Shown here: positions 3,802 to 50,803 of the stretch, piece after piece
Position numbering within the stretch: position 1 is the stretch's first letter
Layout: the number at the start of each line of letters is the position of its first letter
From: an uncultured Prevotellaceae bacterium
GTDB taxonomy: Bacteria > Bacteroidota > Bacteroidia > Bacteroidales > Bacteroidaceae
DNA: 53,473 bases
Reading direction: 5' to 3'
Assembly: GCA_900318815.1 (NCBI GenBank)
Contig: ONMA01000037.1
Location: forward strand, 1-53,473
Translations under genes and position numbers: made by a program
Notes under the pieces: generated by a model
The model's database searches: none
Told to the model about the DNA's origin: nothing
The model's input: the letters and a program-made list of their open reading frames with translations, nothing else

Positions 3802-3837
3802 CGACCACTAATTTCACGAATTAAACTAATTTATTCT
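3802..3837 (+). repeat. Left inverted-repeat arm of the first GxxExxY cassette
   Basis: This stretch starts CGACCACTAATTTCACG and continues with two more AATT words. It pairs imperfectly (about 26 of 31 positions by eye) with the reverse complement of 4297-4327. It begins 10 nt after the korA stop and ends just before the GxxExxY start. Its word skeleton also aligns with the ACGGATT arms at 5414-5498 and 50479-50803. Confidence 0.75.
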
Positions 3838-3841
3838 TGCG

Positions 3842-4234
3842 ATGTATAGAGACGATTTACTGTATAAAGAAGAGGTGCATGAGATTATCGGTGCGGCTAT
3901 GGTTGTTCATCGTTATTTCGGGTGCGGCTTTACAGAAAAAGTCTATCAAGACGCCTTGGAAATAGAGTTGGCAAATCGAAACATTCCATCACTTAGGGAA
4001 GCTGAGTTGCACATTGTTTATAATGGAAAGGAACTCGCATCCACCTTCAAGCCCGACTTCATTTGCTACAATAGTATTATTGTTGAGTTAAAGGCAGTCA
4101 AGGCATTGGATGATACGCATCGCTCGCAAGCCATCAACTACGGGAAAGTTGCAGAATGCGACATGGCACTACTTATCAATTTTGGAGAGACATCCCTCAA
4201 ATTTGAGCGTTACGTCATAAAAAGAAAAAATTAG
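3842..4234 (+). CDS. GxxExxY protein (PD-(D/E)XK nuclease fold)
   Basis: A 130-aa member of the GxxExxY family (TIGR04256-like, PDDEXK_3). The signature is Gly29-Glu32-Tyr35 (GFTEKVY). The nuclease-fold core is Asp72 (FKPDF) with Glu82 and Lys84 (VELKA), so the D-ExK active site looks intact. No cellular role is established for the family. The gene sits between korA and korB, flanked by inverted repeat arms, and its stop codon (4232-4234) lies inside the first downstream repeat unit. It looks like cargo of an inserted element rather than part of the oxidoreductase. Confidence 0.9.
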   Translation: MYRDDLLYKEEVHEIIGAAMVVHRYFGCGFTEKVYQDALEIELANRNIPSLREAELHIVYNGKELASTFKPDFICYNSIIVELKAVKALDDTHRSQAINYGKVAECDMALLINFGETSLKFERYVIKRKN

Positions 4235-4327
4235 AGAAATTCGCTAATCCATAATAGGAAATAATTAGTGAAATTCGCGTAATTCGTGGTAGAAAATAAT
4301 TAGAGAAATTCGTGAAATTCGTGGTCG
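4227..4327 (+). repeat. Right repeat arm of the first GxxExxY cassette (three units)
   Basis: Three units of about 33-35 bp begin near 4227, 4261 and 4296. They share the skeleton AATTAGwGAAATTCGyGwA followed by ATTCGTGG. The last unit (4297-4327) is the inverted counterpart of 3802-3837. The first unit supplies the stop codon of the GxxExxY gene, and the array ends 36 nt before korB. Confidence 0.8.
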
Positions 4328-27839: not shown

Positions 27840-28835
27840 ATGTACGCATATATGAAAAGGATACAAGTTTTAGCTTTGCTATTCGTTGCGGCTTTTTGCA
27901 TGGCTGTAACCCCTGTGACAGCGCACGACATTGAGGTAGAATATTCTGGCAAAACCATCTATTACACGTTTATCAATTATCATACTGAGTTGGAAGTGAG
28001 TTATCGGGGAACAAACTATTCTTCTTATTCCAATGAGTATACAGGCAATGTCATTATTCCTCAAGCAGTCAATTTCAATGGAACAAATTATCCTGTGACG
28101 AGCATAGGATATTGCGCTTTCGAAGATTGCAGTGGCTTGACCTCCATCACGATTCCCAACAGCGTGACGAGCATAAGAGAGTATGCTTTCTTTGATTGCA
28201 GCAGCCTGACCTCCGTCATAATTCCCAACAGCGTGACGAGAATAGGAAGCGATGCTTACCATGGTTGCAGCAGCCTGACCTCCGTCACGATTCCCAACAG
28301 CGTGACGAGTATAGAATGGGGGACTTTCCAAGGTTGCAGCGGTCTGACCTCCGTCACGATTCCCAACAGCGTGACGAGCATAGGAAGCTCTGCTTTCTAT
28401 GGCTGCAGCAGCCTGACCTCCGTCACGATTCCCAACAGCGTGACGAGTATAGAATGGGGGACTTTTCAAGGTTGCATCGGTCTTACCTCCGCCACGATTG
28501 GCAACAGCGTAACGAGCATAGGAGAGTATGCTTTCTCTAATTGCAGCGGTCTGGCCTCCATCACGATTCCCAACAGCGTGACGAGCATAAAAGAGTTTGC
28601 ATTCAAAGACTGCAACGGTCTGACCTCCGTCACGATTGGCAGCGGCGTGACGTATATAGAAAGGGGTGCTTTCTATGGTTGCAGCGGCCTGACCTCCATC
28701 TCAATAGACACCAACAATACTATTTATGACTCACGCAACAACTGTAATGCGATTATCAAGACAAATACGAACGAACTCATCATAGGATGTGCCAATACCA
28801 TCATTCCCAACAGCGTGACGAGCATATGGTTGTAG
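27840..28835 (+). CDS. BspA-type leucine-rich repeat protein A, N-terminal part
   Basis: A 331-aa open segment. A signal peptide (start at 27840 or Met at 27852; AFCMAVTPVTAHD) is followed by a beta-rich domain and about nine BspA/LRR_5 repeats of 23 residues (CSSLTSVTIPNSVTSIGxxAF). BspA-type proteins are surface adhesins that bind host proteins or other bacteria. Frame is lost at about 28824: after AGCATA about 14 nt of the next repeat unit are missing, giving TGG TTG TAG. The rest continues in the +1 frame from about 28829. It is the 5' part of a disrupted gene unless the frameshift is an assembly error. Confidence 0.85.
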   Translation: MYAYMKRIQVLALLFVAAFCMAVTPVTAHDIEVEYSGKTIYYTFINYHTELEVSYRGTNYSSYSNEYTGNVIIPQAVNFNGTNYPVTSIGYCAFEDCSGLTSITIPNSVTSIREYAFFDCSSLTSVIIPNSVTRIGSDAYHGCSSLTSVTIPNSVTSIEWGTFQGCSGLTSVTIPNSVTSIGSSAFYGCSSLTSVTIPNSVTSIEWGTFQGCIGLTSATIGNSVTSIGEYAFSNCSGLASITIPNSVTSIKEFAFKDCNGLTSVTIGSGVTYIERGAFYGCSGLTSISIDTNNTIYDSRNNCNAIIKTNTNELIIGCANTIIPNSVTSIWL

Positions 28836-28866
28836 CAGCCTGACCTCCGTCACGATTGGCAGCGGC

Positions 28867-29937
28867 GTGACGAGCATAGGATACTATGCTTTCTCTTATT
28901 GCAGCAGTCTGACCAGCATCTCAATAGATGCCAACAATACTATTTATGACTCACGCAACAACTGTAATGCGATTATCAAGACAATCACGAACGAACTCAT
29001 CACAGGATGTGCCAATACCATCATTCCCAACAGCGTGACGAGCATAGGATGGGGTGCTTTCTTGGGCTGTAGGAGCCTGACCTCCGTCACGATTCCCAAC
29101 AGCGTGACGAGCATAGGATACGGGGCTTTTTGGGGTTGCAGTGGCCTGGCCTCCATCACCATTCCCAATAGCGTGAAGAGCATAGGAGGCTCTGCTTTCT
29201 ATGGTTGTAGCGGCCTGACCTCCATCACGATTTCCAACAGCGTAACGAGCATAGGATGGAGTGCTTTCGCGTTTTGTAGTAACTTGACAGAAATGTATTG
29301 CTATGCAAAGCAGGTGCCTACAACGGGAAGCAGTGTTTTTAACGAAGTTGACCTTACAAATGCCACGCTACATGTGCCAGCGTCAGCTTTGAACGACTAC
29401 AAGACCACTGCGCCGTGGAGCGAGTTCGGGATTATCGTGCCGATTGACGATGAAGAGGTGGATGACTTGCAGGACTACCTCAATTCATTTGCCGACACCG
29501 AGGACGTGCTGACAGCTACGACGTACACCCGACAATTCAAAAACACACAGTGGCAGTCGCTGTATGTGCCATTCTCACTGAGCTATGACCAGTGGAGTTA
29601 TTATTTAGAGGTGGCACGGCTGACGGGTGCTTCCATCACAGACGACCACGCCCAAATAGAAGCCACGCTGCTAACAGCCGACGACGGCGACCTACTGGCG
29701 AACACGCCTTATTTAGTTCGTGCAAAGAAAACAGGAGAACACACGATTAGCTTTGGTGCGTCGCAGCTGTCTGAACAGAAGGAGAACACACAGGCGTTGG
29801 GTGAAATCTTAACCATCAAAGGTGTCAATAGCCAGCGTACAGGTCTGAAAAGCTCAGGATTTCGCTGCATGATCGGCGGTTCGCTGTGTTACCCCAGCAC
29901 TGACGACTACTCCATGACGGTACCACCACTGGCATAA
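28867..29937 (+). CDS. BspA-type leucine-rich repeat protein A, central/C-terminal part
   Basis: This is the continuation of protein A in the +1 frame. The nominal GTG at 28867 lies inside a repeat unit and is not a credible start; the frame is open from about 28829. It encodes about six more LRR_5 repeats, then NLTEMYCYAKQVPTTGSSVF and the module DLQDYLNSFADTEDVLTATT with FKNTQWQSLYVPFSLSYDQW that is shared with the upstream 675-aa protein. It ends prematurely (STDDYSMTVPPLA) because about 50 nt present in paralogue B at 32025-32074 are missing; the sorting tail is out of frame. Confidence 0.75.
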   Translation: MTSIGYYAFSYCSSLTSISIDANNTIYDSRNNCNAIIKTITNELITGCANTIIPNSVTSIGWGAFLGCRSLTSVTIPNSVTSIGYGAFWGCSGLASITIPNSVKSIGGSAFYGCSGLTSITISNSVTSIGWSAFAFCSNLTEMYCYAKQVPTTGSSVFNEVDLTNATLHVPASALNDYKTTAPWSEFGIIVPIDDEEVDDLQDYLNSFADTEDVLTATTYTRQFKNTQWQSLYVPFSLSYDQWSYYLEVARLTGASITDDHAQIEATLLTADDGDLLANTPYLVRAKKTGEHTISFGASQLSEQKENTQALGEILTIKGVNSQRTGLKSSGFRCMIGGSLCYPSTDDYSMTVPPLA

Positions 29938-30077
29938 CAGCAAAGGCAGATGCCGGTGATGAGGTTGATCGACACGCAATCTATGACCTGTCAGGACACC
30001 GTATGACATCGGGACACCCCTCGGAGCTGCCCAAGGGAATCTACCTGATTGACGGAAAGAAATATATTATAAAATAA
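29919..30077 (+). pseudogene. Out-of-frame sorting tail of BspA protein A
   Basis: This segment encodes TGITAKADAGDEVDRHAIYD, LSGHRM and PKGIYLIDGKKYIIK, the type IX sorting-like tail expected at the end of protein A. It is separated from the preceding frame by the roughly 50-nt deletion near 29911. Without it, protein A would not be sorted to the surface. Confidence 0.75.
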
Positions 30078-30079
30078 TA

Positions 30080-31027
30080 ATGTACGCATATATGAGAAGG
30101 ATACGAGTTTTAGCTTTGCTATTCGTTGCGGCTTTTTGCATGGCTGTAACCCCTGTGACAGCGCACGACATTGAGGTGGTATATTCTGGCAAAACCATCT
30201 ATTACACGTTTATCAATGATAATACTGAGTTGGAAGTGAGTTATCGGGGAATGTCCTATTATACTTATTCCAATGAGTATACAGGCAATGTCATTATTCC
30301 ACAAACAGTCAATTTCAATGGAACAAATTATCCTGTGACGAGCATAGGAGGGTATGCTTTCTATGATTGCAGCGGCCTGACCTCCGTCACGATTCCCAAC
30401 AGTGTGACGAGAATAGGAGGCTATGCTTTCTATAACTGCAGCAGCCTGACCTCCATCACAATTCCCAACAGTGTGACAAGCATAGGATGGGGTGCTTTCT
30501 CTGACTGCAGCAGCCTGACCTCCGTCACGATTCCCAACAGCGTGACGAGCATAGGAGAATTTGCTTTCTACAACTGCAGCAGCCTGACCTCCGTCACGAT
30601 TTCCAACAGCGTGACGAGCATAGGAATATGCGCTTTCGCAAGTTGCAGCAGCCTGACCTCAGTCACGATTCCCAACAACGTGACGAGAATAGAAGACTCA
30701 GCTTTCAATGGCTGTAGCAACCTGACTTCAGTCACGATTCCCAACAGCGTGACGAGCATAGGAGGCTCTGCTTTTTATGGTTGCAGCCGCCTGACCTCCG
30801 TCACGATTGGCAGTGGCGTGACGAGCATAGGAGGGTATGCTTTCGCAAGTTGCAGCAGCCTAACCAGCATCTCAATAGATGCCAACAATACTATTTTTGA
30901 CTCACGCAACAACTGTAATGCGATTATCAAGACAAATACGAACGAACTCATCATAGGATGTGCCAATACCATCATTCCCAACAGCGTGACGAGCATAACG
31001 GCGCTTTCTATGGTTGTAGCAGCCTGA
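30080..31027 (+). CDS. BspA-type leucine-rich repeat protein B, N-terminal part
   Basis: A tandem paralogue of protein A: the first roughly 120 nt of the two genes are nearly identical, and the gene begins 2 nt after the tail of A. A signal peptide and beta-rich domain precede about ten LRR_5 repeats. Frame is lost at about 30998, where one base of a repeat unit is missing (AGC ATA ACG GCG), giving the tail TALSMVVAA. The following sequence continues in the -1 frame. The break falls in the same repeat module as in protein A, but with a different size. Confidence 0.85.
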   Translation: MYAYMRRIRVLALLFVAAFCMAVTPVTAHDIEVVYSGKTIYYTFINDNTELEVSYRGMSYYTYSNEYTGNVIIPQTVNFNGTNYPVTSIGGYAFYDCSGLTSVTIPNSVTRIGGYAFYNCSSLTSITIPNSVTSIGWGAFSDCSSLTSVTIPNSVTSIGEFAFYNCSSLTSVTISNSVTSIGICAFASCSSLTSVTIPNNVTRIEDSAFNGCSNLTSVTIPNSVTSIGGSAFYGCSRLTSVTIGSGVTSIGGYAFASCSSLTSISIDANNTIFDSRNNCNAIIKTNTNELIIGCANTIIPNSVTSITALSMVVAA

Positions 31028-32055
31028 CCTCCATCACGATTGGCAGCGGCGTGACGAGCATAGGAGGGAATGCTTTCGATTATTGCAGCAGCCTGGCCAG
31101 CATCTCAATAGATGCCAACAATACTATTTATGACTCACGCAACAACTGTAATGCGATTATCAAGACAAGTACGAACGAACTCATCACAGGATGCGCCAAT
31201 ACCATCATACCCAACAGCGTGACAAGCATAGGAGAGCGTGCTTTCTATTATTGTAGCAGCCTAACCTCCATCACAATTCCCAACAGCGTGACGAGTATAG
31301 GACACTCTGCTTTCTATTATTGTAGCAGCCTGTCCTCCGTCACGATTCCCAACAGCGTGACGAGAATAGAAGAGTTTGCTTTCCGTAATTGTAGAAAGCT
31401 AAGAGATATGTATTGCTATGCAAAGCAGGTGCCAACAACGGAAGGCAATGTTTTTTATGAAGATAACCTTACAAATGACACGCTACATGTGCCCGCGTCA
31501 GCCTTGAACGACTACAAGACCACTGCGCCGTGGAGCGAGTTCGGGATTATCGTACCGATTGACGAGGAAGAGGTGGATGACTTGCAGGACTACCTCAATT
31601 CATTTGCCGACACCGAGGACGTGCTGACGGCTACGACGTACACCCGACAATTCAAAAACACGCAGTGGCAGTCGCTGTATGTGCCATTCTCGCTGAGCTA
31701 TGACCAGTGGAGTTCTTCTTTTGAGGTGGCACGGCTGACGGGTGCTTCCACCACAGACGACCACGCCCAAATAGAAGCCACGCTGCTGACAGCAGGCGAC
31801 GGCGACCTGCTGGCGAACACACCTTATTTAATTCGTGCGAAGAAAACAGGAAAACACACGATTAGCTTTCGTGCATCGCAGCTGTCTGAACAGAAGGAGA
31901 ACACACAGGCGTTGGGTGAACTCTTGACCATCAAAGGTGTCAATAGCCAGCGTACAGGTCTGAAAAGCTCAGGATTTCGCTGCATGATCGGCGGTTCGCT
32001 GTGTTACCCCAGCACTGACGACTACCTATTCCAATGGGCCGAGGATGGTCCTTAA
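30958..32055 (+). CDS. BspA-type leucine-rich repeat protein B, central/C-terminal part
   Basis: The continuation of protein B in another frame; the ATG at 30958 reads an unrelated frame through LRR DNA for about 15 codons, so it is not a real start. It holds about five LRR_5 repeats, the MYCYAKQVPTTEGNVF segment and the shared module DLQDYLNSFADTEDVLTATT with FKNTQWQSLYVPFSLSYDQW. It stops at EDGP (32053-32055), after which the expected tail lies in a shifted frame, consistent with two missing bases near 32048. Confidence 0.75.
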   Translation: MCQYHHSQQRDEHNGAFYGCSSLTSITIGSGVTSIGGNAFDYCSSLASISIDANNTIYDSRNNCNAIIKTSTNELITGCANTIIPNSVTSIGERAFYYCSSLTSITIPNSVTSIGHSAFYYCSSLSSVTIPNSVTRIEEFAFRNCRKLRDMYCYAKQVPTTEGNVFYEDNLTNDTLHVPASALNDYKTTAPWSEFGIIVPIDEEEVDDLQDYLNSFADTEDVLTATTYTRQFKNTQWQSLYVPFSLSYDQWSSSFEVARLTGASTTDDHAQIEATLLTAGDGDLLANTPYLIRAKKTGKHTISFRASQLSEQKENTQALGELLTIKGVNSQRTGLKSSGFRCMIGGSLCYPSTDDYLFQWAEDGP

Positions 32056-44952: not shown

Positions 44953-45062
44953 CGGAGGTGCGGGGGTACGGAGGTACGGGGGTACGAGAATAGTTTGCAC
45001 GCCCAGTTTTCCACGAGGAGTCTATCCTCGCACCTCCGAACCTTCGTACCCTCGTACCTCCG
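44953..45062. repeat. GTACGAGG-type element, complete copy
   Basis: Inverted arms of 8-bp words (left CGGAGGTGCGGGGGTACGGA..., right CCTCGCACCTCCGAAC...CTCCG) enclose a core that, reversed, reads GATAGACTCCTCGTGG ... GGGCGTGCAAACTATTCTCG. The same core occurs at 18777 and 48676. It lies between the DUF4292 gene and the EnvC-like gene of one operon. Confidence 0.85.
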
Positions 45063-45954: not shown

Positions 45955-47657
45955 TGCTTTATGTATTTTTTACGCTTTATTTTTCTGATGAGTACTTTAT
46001 TTCCCGGGTCTTGCTCCAGGGCGTTGTTCCAGTGAGCCAACGCGCCTTCCACGTCGCCGTTGAGCATGTAGATGTCGCCGCCGTGCTCAATGATGACATG
46101 ACTGTGCAGCGAGTCGTTCTGTATGGCCTGGTCGATGTAGATGCGTGCCTCGCTGTAGCGCTTCTGCATGAAGAGTACCCAGGCGTAGGTATCTAAGTAG
46201 GTGGAGTTATTCGGCTCGGCCTTGATGGTGCGATAGCTCATCTGCTCGGCCTGTTCCAGCCGCTCGCCCTCCACACTGAGATAGTAGGCGTAGTTGTTCA
46301 GACAGCCAATGTTGTCGGGCTTCCAGTGCAGGCAGGAGTCGTAGGCGGCGTAGGCCTCCTCCTTCAGTCCCTTCTGGTGGAGCAGGTCGCCCATCACCTC
46401 ATAGAAAGAGGAGGCGATGTCGGGCGAGCTCTCCTCGTCAATGACGCTGATGCCGTTGCGGAAGGCCTCTAAGGCGTTGTCGTTGTCCTGCAGGCTGTAG
46501 TAGGCCATGCCCTGGTAGTAGTAGAAGGCCATTTCGTCGGGGTTATACTGTCGGGCGGCCTTGCAGAGTTCGATGACGCGCTGCTCGTTGCCGTCCTCCC
46601 AGGCATACTGCACCAGCTGCAGGCGGGCCGAGGCATTGTCGGGGGCCAGGCCAAGCACGAACTCGAGCATGTTGCTCACGCTGTCGCGCGGCATCTTCTT
46701 CAGGTTCATGTAGGCAGCACAGAACTCGCCCAGCTCCGGGTCGGGGTCGGGCTGTGCCATCATCTCGTGGAAGAGGTTCAGGATATAGGTGCTGTCGCCG
46801 TCGGCATTCTCGCTGGCACTAATCTCCTGACGCAGCAAGTAGACCTTCTCTTCCTGCGAGGCCTCCTTGTTCAGCAGGATGCAGCGGGTGATGGAGTCGG
46901 CACGCTCGCCCTCCGACAGCATTAGGTAATAGGTGCGCATGGCCATCTGTGCCCGTGAGTTGAGGGGTTCCTGACGCAGCACGCCGTCCAGCACGTCGTA
47001 GGCCTCAGCCTCGCGATCGTTCATCATCAGCATGTTGGCCAGCAACGTCTGATACGTCAGGTCGTTGGGGTGCTGCGTGGCCAGCTGCTGCATCTCGTCG
47101 ATGGCGGCCTCCTTGTTGTCCATCTGCATGTAGAGCTGGCTCTTGCTCACCGACAGGCGCTCGCTCTTGCCGTCGATGGTCTCCATGCGCTCCAGCACGC
47201 TGACAGCATTCTCGTAGTCCTTCAGACGCACATAGAGACGGTAGACCATCTCCAACAGGTCCTGACGACTCTTGTCGGCCTCGTACATCCGCTCGAAAAC
47301 CTCGATGGATTCGGCGAAATTCTCCGATTCCATGTAGGCCTCAGCCAGTGTCTCCAAATATGTGCTGTTCTGGGGTTCCAGGTCGGCAGCCCGCTTGAAG
47401 TAGCTCATCGCCTTGTCCTTGTCGCTCAGATGACTATAGTATTGGGCCAGGAAGAAATAGGCCTCGCTGGCCTGCGGATTCAGCTCTAAACAGCGGGACA
47501 GCAAATCGAAGGCAGCGTCGGCATTGCCTTTCTGACGCTGCACCATCGCCTCCATGAACAACAGGTCGTATTCCCGCTGCACGTCTCGATGCACATCTTG
47601 CGCATGGCTAAAGGACGAATGAAAGACGAATAAAATGAATAACGCTATTATCCTCAT
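45951..47657 (-). CDS. Tetratricopeptide repeat protein, exported
   Basis: A 568-aa protein with a signal peptide (MRIIALFILFVFHSSFSHAQ) and about twelve TPR units throughout (for example NPQASEAYFFLAQYYSHLSD, DPGNKVL at the end). TPR arrays are protein-interaction scaffolds; in this operon it may work with the DUF4292 lipoprotein and the EnvC-like protein at the envelope. No enzymatic domain is seen. It is the first gene of the minus-strand operon, with a -7 box about 27 nt upstream. Confidence 0.88.
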   Translation of the reverse strand: MRIIALFILFVFHSSFSHAQDVHRDVQREYDLLFMEAMVQRQKGNADAAFDLLSRCLELNPQASEAYFFLAQYYSHLSDKDKAMSYFKRAADLEPQNSTYLETLAEAYMESENFAESIEVFERMYEADKSRQDLLEMVYRLYVRLKDYENAVSVLERMETIDGKSERLSVSKSQLYMQMDNKEAAIDEMQQLATQHPNDLTYQTLLANMLMMNDREAEAYDVLDGVLRQEPLNSRAQMAMRTYYLMLSEGERADSITRCILLNKEASQEEKVYLLRQEISASENADGDSTYILNLFHEMMAQPDPDPELGEFCAAYMNLKKMPRDSVSNMLEFVLGLAPDNASARLQLVQYAWEDGNEQRVIELCKAARQYNPDEMAFYYYQGMAYYSLQDNDNALEAFRNGISVIDEESSPDIASSFYEVMGDLLHQKGLKEEAYAAYDSCLHWKPDNIGCLNNYAYYLSVEGERLEQAEQMSYRTIKAEPNNSTYLDTYAWVLFMQKRYSEARIYIDQAIQNDSLHSHVIIEHGGDIYMLNGDVEGALAHWNNALEQDPGNKVLIRKIKRKKYIKQ

Positions 47658-47683
47658 GTAATATTTTTATGTATAAAGAGCTG

Positions 47684-47691
47684 CAAAATTA
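47684..47691 (-). promoter_or_regulatory. -7 box of the TPR-DUF4292-EnvC operon
   Basis: The minus strand reads TAATTTTG, matching TAnnTTTG, 27 nt before the ATG at 47657. No clear -33 element is visible. Confidence 0.55.
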
Positions 47692-47769
47692 GTGATTTCC
47701 ATCGAAAAAGCCATATTTTTAATGCTAAAATGTGTTTTTCTTGCAAAAAAGCAGTACTTTTGTACTCTT

Positions 47770-48186
47770 GACGGAGGAACGATTTTCTGTTTTGACGGAT
47801 AGACGGATGAACGAATCTTTTTTGACGGATAGACGGATGAACGATTTTCTGTTTTGACGGATAGACGGATGAACGAATCTTTCTTGACGGATAGACGGAT
47901 GGACGAATCTATTTTGACGGATAGACAGATGAACGATTTTCTGTTTGGACGGTTAGACGGATGAACGATTTCTTCTGACGGATAGACGGATGAACGATTA
48001 TCTGTTTGGACGGATAGACGGATGGACGATTTCTTCTGACGGATAGACGGATGAACGATTTTCTGTTTGGACGGATAGACGGATGAACGATTCTTTTTGA
48101 CGGTTTGACGGATGGACGAATCTATTTTGACGGATAGACGGAGGAACGAATCTTTCTTGACGGATAGACGGAGGAACGGATTTCTT
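47770..48186 (-). repeat. Array of about 14 GACGGATAGACGGATGAACGA units
   Basis: About fourteen units of 28-32 bp each contain GACGGATAGACGGATGAACG plus an alternating tail (AATCTTTCTT, ATTTTCTGTTT or ATTTCTTCT). Within a unit the ACGGAT word recurs about every 10 bp. The array lies upstream of the second GxxExxY gene and is inverted relative to the array at 48946-49086. It and the flanks fill the 600-nt gap before that gene; no other gene is seen here. Confidence 0.95.
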
Positions 48187-48263
48187 AAACATACAATACT
48201 ATAAAGTTTAATCATATAAAATTATCTATATAAAAGCGACAATAATAACTTAAAGAATGCAAT

Positions 48264-48644
48264 ATGAATACGAAAGAATTAATAGACGTGATAGTTGAAT
48301 GCGCCAAACTGGTGCGCAAACAACTGTCATACGGCTTTGAAGAGAAGGTGTATAAGAACGCCATGTTTATAGAACTGAAGAAGCATAATTTGTCCGTTGA
48401 GATTGAAGTACCCATCAAGGTCTATTACGACGGACAGGTTGTAGGCGACTTTAGGGCAGACATAATTGTTGACAAGAGAATCATCATTGAACTAAAGGCA
48501 ACTAACGCCCTGGCCATCGTCCATTCCGTCCAACTTGTCAACTATCTCACAGCCACGGGCATTGACGACGGCCTCCTTATCAACTTCGGTGCCGAACACC
48601 TCGAAATAAAACACAAAACCCGCCTCTACTACAAATGCCAATAA
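48264..48644 (+). CDS. GxxExxY protein (PD-(D/E)XK nuclease fold), second copy
   Basis: A 126-aa GxxExxY family protein, clearly diverged from the copy at 3842. The signature is Gly24-Glu27-Tyr30 (GFEEKVY). The active-site pattern is Asp66 (FRADI) with Glu76 and Lys78 (IELKA), intact as in the first copy. It lies between a left array of 14 units and a right inverted array of the same words, with a GTACGAGG element in between on the right. No promoter box is obvious. Function is unknown; the shared placement of both copies suggests a role tied to the surrounding repeats. Confidence 0.9.
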   Translation: MNTKELIDVIVECAKLVRKQLSYGFEEKVYKNAMFIELKKHNLSVEIEVPIKVYYDGQVVGDFRADIIVDKRIIIELKATNALAIVHSVQLVNYLTATGIDDGLLINFGAEHLEIKHKTRLYYKCQ

Positions 48645-48675
48645 GTAACATACAAAAAATAAAATGGTACAATTT

Positions 48676-48783
48676 CGGAGGTACGAAGGTACGAGGGCAC
48701 GGAGGTACGAGGATAGACTCTTCGCGGAAAATTGGACGTGCGAACAATTCTCGTACACCGTACCTCTGTACCGCCGCACCCCA
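48676..48783. repeat. GTACGAGG-type element, complete copy
   Basis: Left arm CGGAGGTACGAAGGTACGAG..., core GATAGACTCTTCGCGGAAAA ... GACGTGCGAACAATTCTCG, right arm of GTACC and GCACC words. Compared with 44953-45062 it is in the opposite orientation. Confidence 0.85.
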
Positions 48784-48945
48784 GAATTATACCATATAAA
48801 TTTTTAAAATAAAAGACTTTGATTATTTCTTATTAAACATGAATTATCACGAATTATCCATTAATGGCTGCGCATTGCAATTATATGAAAAATTATATGG
48901 CAATTATATGTTAAAGAAAATATTATTGACGTTTACTATAATAAT

Positions 48946-49086
48946 TCGTTCATCCGTCTAACCGTCAAAAAAGTCTATCCGTCAAAAGAAACCGTCCATC
49001 CGTCTAACCGTCAAAAAAGTCTATCCGTCAAAAGAAACCGTCCATCCGTCTAACCGTCAAAAGAAAAAAGTCTAACCGTCAAAAAA
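48946..49086 (+). repeat. Right array of CCGTC words abutting dgt
   Basis: TCGTTCATCCGTCTAACCGT is the reverse complement of the left array unit apart from one base. The array includes a 46-bp higher-order unit present about twice (TCTATCCGTCAAAAGAAACC...). The last repeat ends at the base before the dgt ATG, so the dgt leader is pure repeat. Confidence 0.92.
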
Positions 49087-50415
49087 ATGAACTGGAATCA
49101 ATTAATATCCAAACGTCGTCTGGGTCAGGAGCACACTCATCCTGAGCGTCACGACGACCGCACCGAGTTCAAGCGCGACTACGACCGTCTCATCTTCTCG
49201 GCTCCGTTCCGTCGTCTGCAGAACAAGACCCAGGTATTCCCTCTTCCGGGCAGTGTCTTTGTCCACAACCGTCTCACCCACTCGCTTGAGGTGGCCAGCG
49301 TCGGCATGTCTTTAGGCAATGACGTCTACCGCGAGCTATGCGTAAAAAATCCCGATTTCATCGGTTCTAAAGTCTCCGAGATAGGTCAGATCGTGTCCAC
49401 TGCCTGTCTTGCCCACGACATGGGCAACCCGCCTTTCGGTCACTCTGGCGAGAAGGCCATCCAGACCTTCTTCACCGAGGGCAAGGGTGCGTATCTGCGC
49501 GAGAAGGTGTCGCCGTCTTTCTGGGACGACATCACCCATTTCGAGGGCAATGCCAATGCGTTCCGTCTGCTCACCCATCAGTTCCACGGGCGTCGTCCCG
49601 GTGGCTTCGTCATGACCTACTCCACCCTGGCCAGCATCGTGAAGTATCCCTTCTCGTCGTCCATGGCGGGCGAGAAGGGCAAGTTCGGCTTCTTCGGCAG
49701 CGAGGCCGACACCTTCGCCCATATCGCCGATGAAATGGGCATTATTTGCAAGGTTCCCCGCGAGAAGTACGTCCGTCATCCGCTGGTCTATCTCGTCGAG
49801 GCCGCCGACGACATCTGCTATGAGATCATGGACTTGGAAGATGCCCACAAGCTGAAGATCCTGTCGTTCGAGGAGACCTGCCAGCTGATGCTCGCCTTCT
49901 TCGACGAGAAGACGCAGGCATCCATCAGGCAGCGCGTCGAGGACGAGCAGCTCACCGACCCCAACGAGCAGATACAGTATTTCCGTGCCTGCGTCATCGG
50001 TAAACTTGAGAACGAGTGCATGCGCACGTTCCTTGCGCATGAAGAGGAGATCCTGGCGGGCGAGTTCGAGGGCAGCCTCATCGGTCATATCTCGCCGTTG
50101 CAGCGCGACGCCTACCGCCATTGTGCCGAGGTCTCCAAGGAGCGTATCTACATGAGTCAGCCGGTGCTCGACGTGGAGCTGTCGGGTTATCGCATCATGG
50201 CCACCCTCATGGAACTGATGGTCGAGGCCATCGAGCATCCCGAACGCTACTACTCCCGTCAGCTCATCGGGCGCGTCTCCTCGCAGTACGACATTGAGAG
50301 CCCTCACCTCGAGACGCGGCTCATGGCGGTCATCGACTACATCTCGGGCATGACCGACGTCTACGCCCTCGATGTCTACCAGAAGATCTGCGGCATCTCC
50401 CTGCCAATAGTCTGA
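49087..50415 (+). CDS. dgt: dGTP triphosphohydrolase (HD domain)
   Basis: A 442-aa Dgt-type dNTPase, which splits dGTP into deoxyguanosine and triphosphate. The HD-domain metal motif is seen in FVHNRLTHSLEVASVG, CLAHDMGNPPFGHSGEKA and the later LVYLVEAADDICYEIMDLED. The N-terminal FRRLQNKTQVFP segment is typical. In some bacteria Dgt limits phage by lowering dGTP. Its start codon directly follows a CCGTC array, with no recognisable promoter in the 300 nt before it. Confidence 0.93.
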   Translation: MNWNQLISKRRLGQEHTHPERHDDRTEFKRDYDRLIFSAPFRRLQNKTQVFPLPGSVFVHNRLTHSLEVASVGMSLGNDVYRELCVKNPDFIGSKVSEIGQIVSTACLAHDMGNPPFGHSGEKAIQTFFTEGKGAYLREKVSPSFWDDITHFEGNANAFRLLTHQFHGRRPGGFVMTYSTLASIVKYPFSSSMAGEKGKFGFFGSEADTFAHIADEMGIICKVPREKYVRHPLVYLVEAADDICYEIMDLEDAHKLKILSFEETCQLMLAFFDEKTQASIRQRVEDEQLTDPNEQIQYFRACVIGKLENECMRTFLAHEEEILAGEFEGSLIGHISPLQRDAYRHCAEVSKERIYMSQPVLDVELSGYRIMATLMELMVEAIEHPERYYSRQLIGRVSSQYDIESPHLETRLMAVIDYISGMTDVYALDVYQKICGISLPIV

Positions 50416-50473
50416 TTGAATTGGAACAGAGATAAAGAGCATCGCATAAAAGACCCAACTCTCGATATATGAA

Positions 50474-50803
50474 TAACCACAACGGATTACACGGATTAAA
50501 CGGATTTTTTTGTATATCTGCGACTAAAGTCGCGATTAATACGGATTACACGGATGTCACACTGCAACCTCATCGCGGCTTTAGCCGCTGTAATCCGATT
50601 ACAATCTGTGATAACCACAACGGATTACACGGATTAAACGGATTTTTTTGTATATCTGCGACTAAAGGCGCGATTAATACGGATTACACGGATGTCACAC
50701 TACTAACTCATCGCGGCTTTAGCCGCTGTAATCCGATTACAATCTGTGAAATGACAATAACATCGCGTAGCCCCAAATCCGTTTAATCCGTGAAATCCGT
50801 TGT
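50474..50803. repeat. ACGGATT-family island with a 138-bp tandem duplication
   Basis: Arms 50479-50507 (ACAACGGATTACACGGATTA...) and 50775-50803 are inverted repeats with one mismatch in 29. Inside, a 138-bp unit is duplicated (50474-50611 and 50612-50749). Each unit carries mini-hairpins GCGACTAAAGTCGC and GCGGCTTTAGCCGC; in the second copy the first hairpin has one change. This fills the gap between dgt and the M20 gene; I see no real gene here. Confidence 0.88.

Follow-up and report, generated by a model that had tools for sequence, protein, structure and literature searches.

According to the accessible parts of the papers on REPIN/RAYT systems (REP with TnpAREP, the "REPtron"; PMC3116915, PMC8266576, PMC3733652), a chromosomal enzyme gene is tied there to its own repeats, gene-less copies occur as intergenic inverted doublets and tandem repeats, and enzyme and repeat have co-evolved; the REP unit is a short palindrome tagged with GTAG or CGTC (PMC3733652). 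The locus studied here lies in a window of 53,473 nucleotides from an uncultured Prevotellaceae bacterium (contig C72; assembly size 4.12 Mb), and resembles these systems, as portrayed in those parts, in an enzyme gene situated beside its own repeats, in gene-less intergenic copies, and in the co-variation of enzyme and repeat. It differs from them in the enzyme, which is of the PD-(D/E)XK type by Pfam, NCBIfam and fold, whereas that of REPIN/RAYT is an HUH tyrosine (Y1) transposase; in the unit, composed of three non-palindromic words of 7–10 bp and not of the GTAG-tagged palindrome described in the same sources; and in the arms, which may exceed ten units. As neither the HUH enzyme nor the tagged palindrome is found here, we regard the locus as representing a different system that works similarly to REPIN/RAYT. 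Our main reading, to which we assign a probability of about 0.58, is that the window locus represents a single copy of a nuclease-plus-repeat element, REPIN/RAYT-like in outline and with an unrelated enzyme.

MITEs accompanied by a transposase have in common with this locus the presence of both gene-bearing and gene-less copies and the inverted ends. Unlike in MITEs, the ends here are expandable arrays of words for which neither a clear boundary nor a target duplication was seen, and the window protein has no match to a transposase family in Pfam or NCBIfam; the signs of mobility are presence/absence and unit-number differences between genomes. Literature searches, with most subscription journals and preprints outside their coverage, yielded for GxxExxY and its accessions passing mentions without repeats in the accessible parts of the texts, and nothing on a GxxExxY–repeat pairing under the family names, repeat words and topics.

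The features considered below are the following (window coordinates, strand, description):

3802..3831, plus strand: left arm of the first locus, 30 nt
3842..4234, plus strand: GxxExxY gene of the first locus, with a word of the ACGAATT type
4245..4327, minus strand: right inverted arm of the first locus (4298–4327) with tandem copies
47640..47769, plus strand: dGTPase promoter region, aligning with the empty site of relative G023 as far as GTACTTTTG
47770..48178, plus strand: left arm, an array of about 13 units of about 30 bp
48264..48644, plus strand: GxxExxY gene, a 126-aa ORF between the arms with a PD-(D/E)XK nuclease fold; E27, D66, E76, K78 and Q90 present
48673..48790, no strand assigned: nested gene-less palindrome of another word, CGGAGGTACGAAGGTACG and its inverse, within the right flank
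48947..49086, minus strand: right arm, the same word as in the left arm inverted, 2.5 copies of a 46-bp unit (Tandem Repeats Finder) and short words
49087..50415, plus strand: host dGTPase gene (dGTP triphosphohydrolase), with the element inserted in its 5' untranslated region

The left-arm unit consists of three 8-bp words, GACGGATA GACGGATG AACG, followed by a T-rich spacer, and Tandem Repeats Finder reports periods of 30 and 61 in 47770–48178, with 13.4 copies of the 30-bp unit. Allowing up to three mismatches, GACGGATAGACGGATGAACG has 13 matches on the plus strand within 47794–48178 and three on the minus strand (48947–48966, 48993–49012, 49039–49058), compared to none in 100 dinucleotide shuffles of the window; about 14 copies of a word to the left of the GxxExxY gene and inverted words to the right of it, as claimed in the earlier note, are thus borne out. 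Shorter inverted words continue up to 49086, and the right arm directly adjoins the dGTPase start codon. In the region 47000–50000 there are 78 inverted pairs, the 25 longest listed being 30 to 58 nt long and 76–94% complementary.

The palindrome at 48673–48790, overlooked earlier, has a minimum free energy of –47.4 kcal/mol and a fold z-score of –4.59. Its word (CGGAGGTACG) recurs in the window at 44953–44986 and in genome G262, and among the fetched GxxExxY loci it is seen only at L071, as one copy on the inverted side. Other repeats of the window are a 138-bp tandem duplication with AACGGATTACACGGATT words and no GxxExxY gene (50473–50749), gene-less AAAACCGTGTAAAACCGTGGC words resembling those of another GxxExxY locus of this genome, L003 on contig C45 (21619–21681), and large 69-bp tandem repeats (CTGACCTCCATCACGATTCCCAACAGC) encoding a leucine-rich-looking region (28095–31394), which we take to be of the BspA-like pattern.

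The genome contains five GxxExxY genes, four of them with inverted word arms. The arms of the first locus of the window, 3802–3831 and 4298–4327, are 87% complementary over 30 nt, its word is different (ACTAATTTCACGAATT), and its protein is 34% identical to the one encoded at 48264–48644. The suggestion that both loci have the same architecture holds for the inverted arms around a gene with differing word and protein, but the arms of the first locus are single, short and weaker than those around 48264–48644. Loci L001 and L005 have similar words, both of the ACGAATT type, and the repeats of L002 are mainly direct. In two genomes, GxxExxY elements with different words (L065 and L001) occupy apparently the same place, presumably between genes for 2-oxoacid oxidoreductase-like subunits.

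The window protein is a member of the GxxExxY family, with 125.1 bits for TIGR04256 (cut-off 35) and 118.9 bits for PF13366 PDDEXK_3 (cut-off 22); neither the family name nor the model name gives GxxExxY a function. The active site is intact, as G24, E27, Y30, D66, E76, K78 and Q90 are invariant across 36 sequences. The fold is Cas4-like: DNA nucleases of the Cas4, lambda-exonuclease and restriction types predominate among the top fold matches, with tRNA-splicing endonucleases further down, whereas a search of PDB sequences gave nothing significant (best E 0.22). Compared to Cas4 (SSO0001, 4ic1) and the RecB/lambda-exonuclease group, the window protein is a stand-alone protein of 126 aa, and the neighbouring genes, encoding a TPR protein, the dGTPase and an M20 peptidase, are not CRISPR genes. 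Cas4 proteins have four cysteines for a [4Fe-4S] cluster, while the window protein has only two, C13 and C125. The units of the window arrays are near-identical and, unlike Cas4-associated arrays, have no variable spacers, their spacers being short T-rich variants and not unique sequences; a CRISPR-like array was rejected on this ground.

Weak similarity to Cas4 models of PADLOC, observed for two of four family members (E 0.001 and 0.0059), one of which also matches a CRISPR-associated PHROG (E 0.0006), could point to a defence or toxin–antitoxin gene, with the arrays acting as decoys or addiction sites. As the window protein itself gave no hit to PADLOC or PHROG models at E 0.01 or to phage records at E 1e-5, and the element contains no partner gene, this candidate was rejected, and we consider it extremely improbable.

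The element interrupts the leader of the dGTPase gene downstream of TANNTTTG, which we take to be the –7 box by the Bacteroidota consensus. The first word starts approximately 7 bases past GTACTTTTG, the right arm reaches the dGTPase ATG, and G023 has 30 bases at the same place instead of the element. The dGTPase gene is present in 38 of 40 genomes of the genus; in the loci of 29 relatives that were compared, 27 of them also with the TPR neighbour visible, neither a GxxExxY gene nor the window word was found in the dGTPase stretch compared. In one other genome, an element with a word of the same class, G (L131), occupies the same dGTPase site by flank homology. Inspection by eye, with only the left side aligned, revealed no clear target-site duplication here, and the array edges are ragged. 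In two further genomes, arrays of other words (GCATAATTCATAATGCACAATGCATAAT at L282 and GAGGAATGAGGAATGAG at L285) are located in the same dGTPase 5' region, as if this region attracted such arrays.

GxxExxY matches were identified in 40 of the 60 genomes of the genus, with none in the other 20 (some of these assemblies being incomplete), and in 101 of 198 sampled Bacteroidota genomes. For loci with full and distinct flanks (70 of 75 in the genus and 74 of 80 in the clade of the window protein), 300 bp of left flank were scored against the reverse complement of 300 bp of right flank, and a score of at least 36 was taken as an inverted match. Such matches are observed at 47 of 70 loci in the genus, compared to 20 of 1379 mismatched left/right pairs (1.5%), at 11 of 30 loci in the phylum (7 of 583 mismatched pairs), and at 63 of 74 loci in the clade, where the rate in mismatched pairs is higher (191 of 1463) because clade members have words in common. 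None of the control flanks of the 29 dGTPase genes reaches even a score of 32. The remaining 23 of the 70 genus loci score below the inverted-match threshold, and strong direct repeats across the gene are seen at 21 of 70. By eye, the arms comprise approximately three words of 7–10 bp each, e.g., CACGGATTACACGGATTACACGGATT (L067), CACAGATTTCACAGATTTACACAGATT (L018) and AAGACATAGTAACATAATAACAGATG (L079). Among eight clade loci from outside Bacteroidota (L183, L184, L190, L195, L197–L200), an inverted word was scored only at L190. The family of elements with the same plan, which the earlier note had suggested from two loci, is supported; it is large and includes both of them.

The clade of the window protein was defined as 92 loci at no less than 47% identity, with 86 distinct proteins, 81 of which could be assigned a word label. 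The words of the clade have a common GAC/AAC/TAC core repeated with period 8 (or 7), and the letters between the core copies vary, yielding the following classes:

Class G: GACGGAT, GACGAAT; includes the window locus
Class T: GACTATA; period 7
Class ATC: GACATCAA
Class AxG: GACAGGAG
Class A: GACATAGT, GACAGAA

In the protein tree, which is based on few alignment columns (tool warning) and has 37 of 83 inner branches open, classes G (8 rows), T (10), ATC (4) and AxG (3) each form one subclade (SH-aLRT 97, 95, 99 and 100, respectively); these counts include same-site pairs and related genomes and are non-independent. The first variable letter changes four times on the tree, compared to a minimum of 18 changes in 300 label shuffles, a test that retained noise-labelled rows from outside Bacteroidota (3 of 13 T and 1 of 4 AxG). 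When only pairs of loci with non-homologous neighbouring genes, that is, different sites, are considered, word similarity correlates with protein identity in all three sets (Mantel r = 0.286 for 72 genus loci, 0.336 for 102 genus and phylum loci, and 0.361 for 75 clade loci; p ≤ 0.001 in each), and word similarity in different-site pairs is 0.220 within a class versus 0.084 between classes. Class G alone is found at four distinct sites. Hence the GxxExxY protein clade and the repeat word co-vary strongly, which is the outcome that the earlier note had proposed to look for; within the clade of the window protein, word class and protein clade are confounded by descent. Residues tracking the word class are concentrated in helix 1 (positions 4, 8 and 11) and at positions 116, 117 and 119, close to the C-terminus, and should be treated as a lead only, because class equals clade.

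In its own genome the 21-base window word has 111 matches with up to three mismatches, compared to none for the reversed control, and the 100 of these matches that were listed fall into 19 sites, 18 of them without a GxxExxY gene. The earlier note would have abandoned the pairing if arrays were equally frequent away from the genes and showed no co-variation; the arrays are indeed mostly away from GxxExxY genes, but the lack of co-variation is contradicted, and this combination fits one gene-bearing copy with many gene-less copies. At one site, three related genomes have seven units (the first one short), two units and none.

The predominance of gene-less sites, together with the orphan arrays described below, would also be expected if the arrays were ordinary tandem repeats born by slippage and moved by another enzyme, with GxxExxY genes merely landing there. 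Slippage leaves unexplained both the inverted matched arms on the two sides of the gene and the co-variation of word and protein across different sites; chance or slippage acting alone was rejected on the same observations, and we find the landing of genes in ordinary repeats very improbable.

Genome-wide, the number of words goes with the class of the gene present. The tests were made on 34 genomes, with full GxxExxY content for G257, G262, G263, G265, G269, G275 and G285 and, for the remaining ones, content taken from the collected loci with possible misassignment (L125 was assigned to G258 and L144 to G268 by record prefix). For the AxG word, the three AxG genomes, which are close relatives with non-independent counts, give 89, 42 and 40 matches (171) versus one match in the other 31 (Fisher p = 0.0007). 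Its reversed control also matches in these three (59, 35 and 36, in total 130) and once in G267, the genome with the single outside match, because the pattern is almost its own mirror. The ATC word is present in 4 of 4 ATC genomes versus 3 of 30 others (p = 0.0008), with no matches of the reversed control. The T word is found in 8 of 10 T genomes, G265 and G269 having none, versus 4 of 24 others (p = 0.0009), and its reversed control matches 12 times in G271 and once or twice in six other genomes. For the genus, the A word was found in 6 of 8 genomes with an A-type clade gene versus 11 of 52 others (p = 0.005), and presence of any GxxExxY match likewise goes with the A word (15 of 40 genomes, versus 2 of 20 lacking a match; p = 0.02); the reversed A pattern matches only in G050, in a simple repeat. 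The G-class pattern was not used, as it matched all 34 genomes and its reversed control rang too.

Strict pairing of one gene with one word per genome was rejected, since some genomes carry many words and no matching gene. Such orphan arrays are formed by A words in G012 (38 words) and G018 (48), each with two GxxExxY genes, none of the clade; by ATC words in G263 (16), G262 (1) and G285 (3), which have no intact ATC gene; and by T words in G257 (13), G262 (4), G275 (26) and G285 (12), which have no T gene. Next to leftover words at L334 (G053), a clade gene persists as a 60-aa remnant, and G262 has a broken (split) clade gene, L235; therefore, the orphans could be explained by loss of the gene while its arrays survived. 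Two further arrangements were observed in relatives. At L298 (G275:C15:200098-200588), arrays are nested and inverted, with T-class words outside and ATC-class words inside, the inner arms being approximately 300 bp apart, too close to leave room for a GxxExxY gene. Positions 1551–1628 of L305 contain a separate 78-bp repeat with many copies in G277 and G278 (identity up to 96%).

Several features could be understood if GxxExxY were a nuclease or DNA-binding protein domesticated for a cellular function, with the arrays being its binding sites (for nucleoid or replication structure, or for gene regulation via 5' untranslated regions) and the co-evolution of word and protein following from the cell's need for a match. 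The protein is under strong purifying selection (median dN/dS 0.053, 17 pairs), one site is common to 25 loci by flank homology, and, of the 16 arrays of the own genome for which a downstream gene was located, nine read in pyrimidine sense into the gene start, 2–100 bp away. On the other hand, unit number at one site decreases to zero among close relatives, a third of the genus genomes yielded no GxxExxY match, and relatives do not conserve the element at the dGTPase gene. Such sites hardly look essential, and we consider domestication unlikely. With respect to the nuclease-plus-repeat element, the many loci shared between genomes, up to the 25 at one site, suggest that gene-bearing copies rarely move.

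The GxxExxY gene shares its strand with both neighbouring genes at 140 of 202 loci, or, counted by site group, in 65 of 95, and expression of GxxExxY via read-through from the host is therefore likely. Read-through transcripts would be compatible with an RNA-level system, in which the transcribed arms fold into one long hairpin that the protein would bind or process, e.g., for self-regulation. Gene-less copies can form hairpins too: inverted doublets of the kind described for REPIN/RAYT are observed in relatives for other word classes (L300, L302, L304 and L310; genomes G273, G275, G276 and G277), and the nested palindrome at 48673–48790 also folds. However, the 18 gene-less arrays of the window word in its own genome have a single orientation each, and such arrays are unable to form the hairpin; relative to the downstream gene, where one was located, their orientation is unbiased (9 versus 7). 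Moreover, the fold matches favor DNA nucleases, although tRNA-splicing endonucleases stand lower in the list. Action at the RNA level hence seems quite improbable to us.

A further point in favor of the nuclease-plus-repeat element is the way in which the two arms change. At shared sites, the similarity of the left and right arms inside a locus is constant at 0.21–0.26 across protein distances, whereas the similarity of the same arm between genomes falls from 0.585 for proteins at least 90% identical (13 pairs) to 0.175 for those with 50–60% identity (128 pairs). The within-locus similarity exceeds the between-genome one in none of the 13 pairs of the first group and in 92 of the 128 of the second; the pairs overlap and are non-independent. 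Therefore, the word changes with time, and does so in both arms alike. This looks like concerted evolution, with some process that would keep both arms matched.

We propose that each GxxExxY protein may read its own word in DNA and nick or cut there. Repair or copying at the cut arrays would then amplify, homogenise and occasionally move the word units, seeding new sites, and would alter the unit number and keep both arms alike. The gene-bearing copy would be the source and the gene-less arrays its dependent copies, with the gene probably expressed by read-through from host promoters. A wider claim, for which we see somewhat less than even odds, is that this is a new class of genomic repeat system, where a stand-alone Cas4-like PD-(D/E)XK nuclease would read a clade-specific three-word DNA code, cut or nick it, and amplify, homogenise and spread the arrays. 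From the initial interpretation of the locus, the family with a common plan and the co-variation of clade and word are retained, while the arrays turn out to be mostly away from the genes and the pairing is not strict.

The pairing of protein and word offers the GxxExxY family, present in 101 of 198 sampled Bacteroidota genomes, a testable role, and would account for one kind of short-word array found between genes in these genomes. The 81 word-labelled proteins out of 86 in the clade constitute a natural co-evolution data set on how a minimal nuclease reads DNA, and, if the proposed recognition is true, the many natural protein/word pairs would amount to an existing catalogue of DNA-recognition specificities. 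Should array growth be driven by the nuclease, a mode of existence like that of REPIN/RAYT would have arisen independently. Taken together, the data suggest a self-maintaining, perhaps mobile, repeat system based on a type of enzyme with no earlier role of this kind on record.
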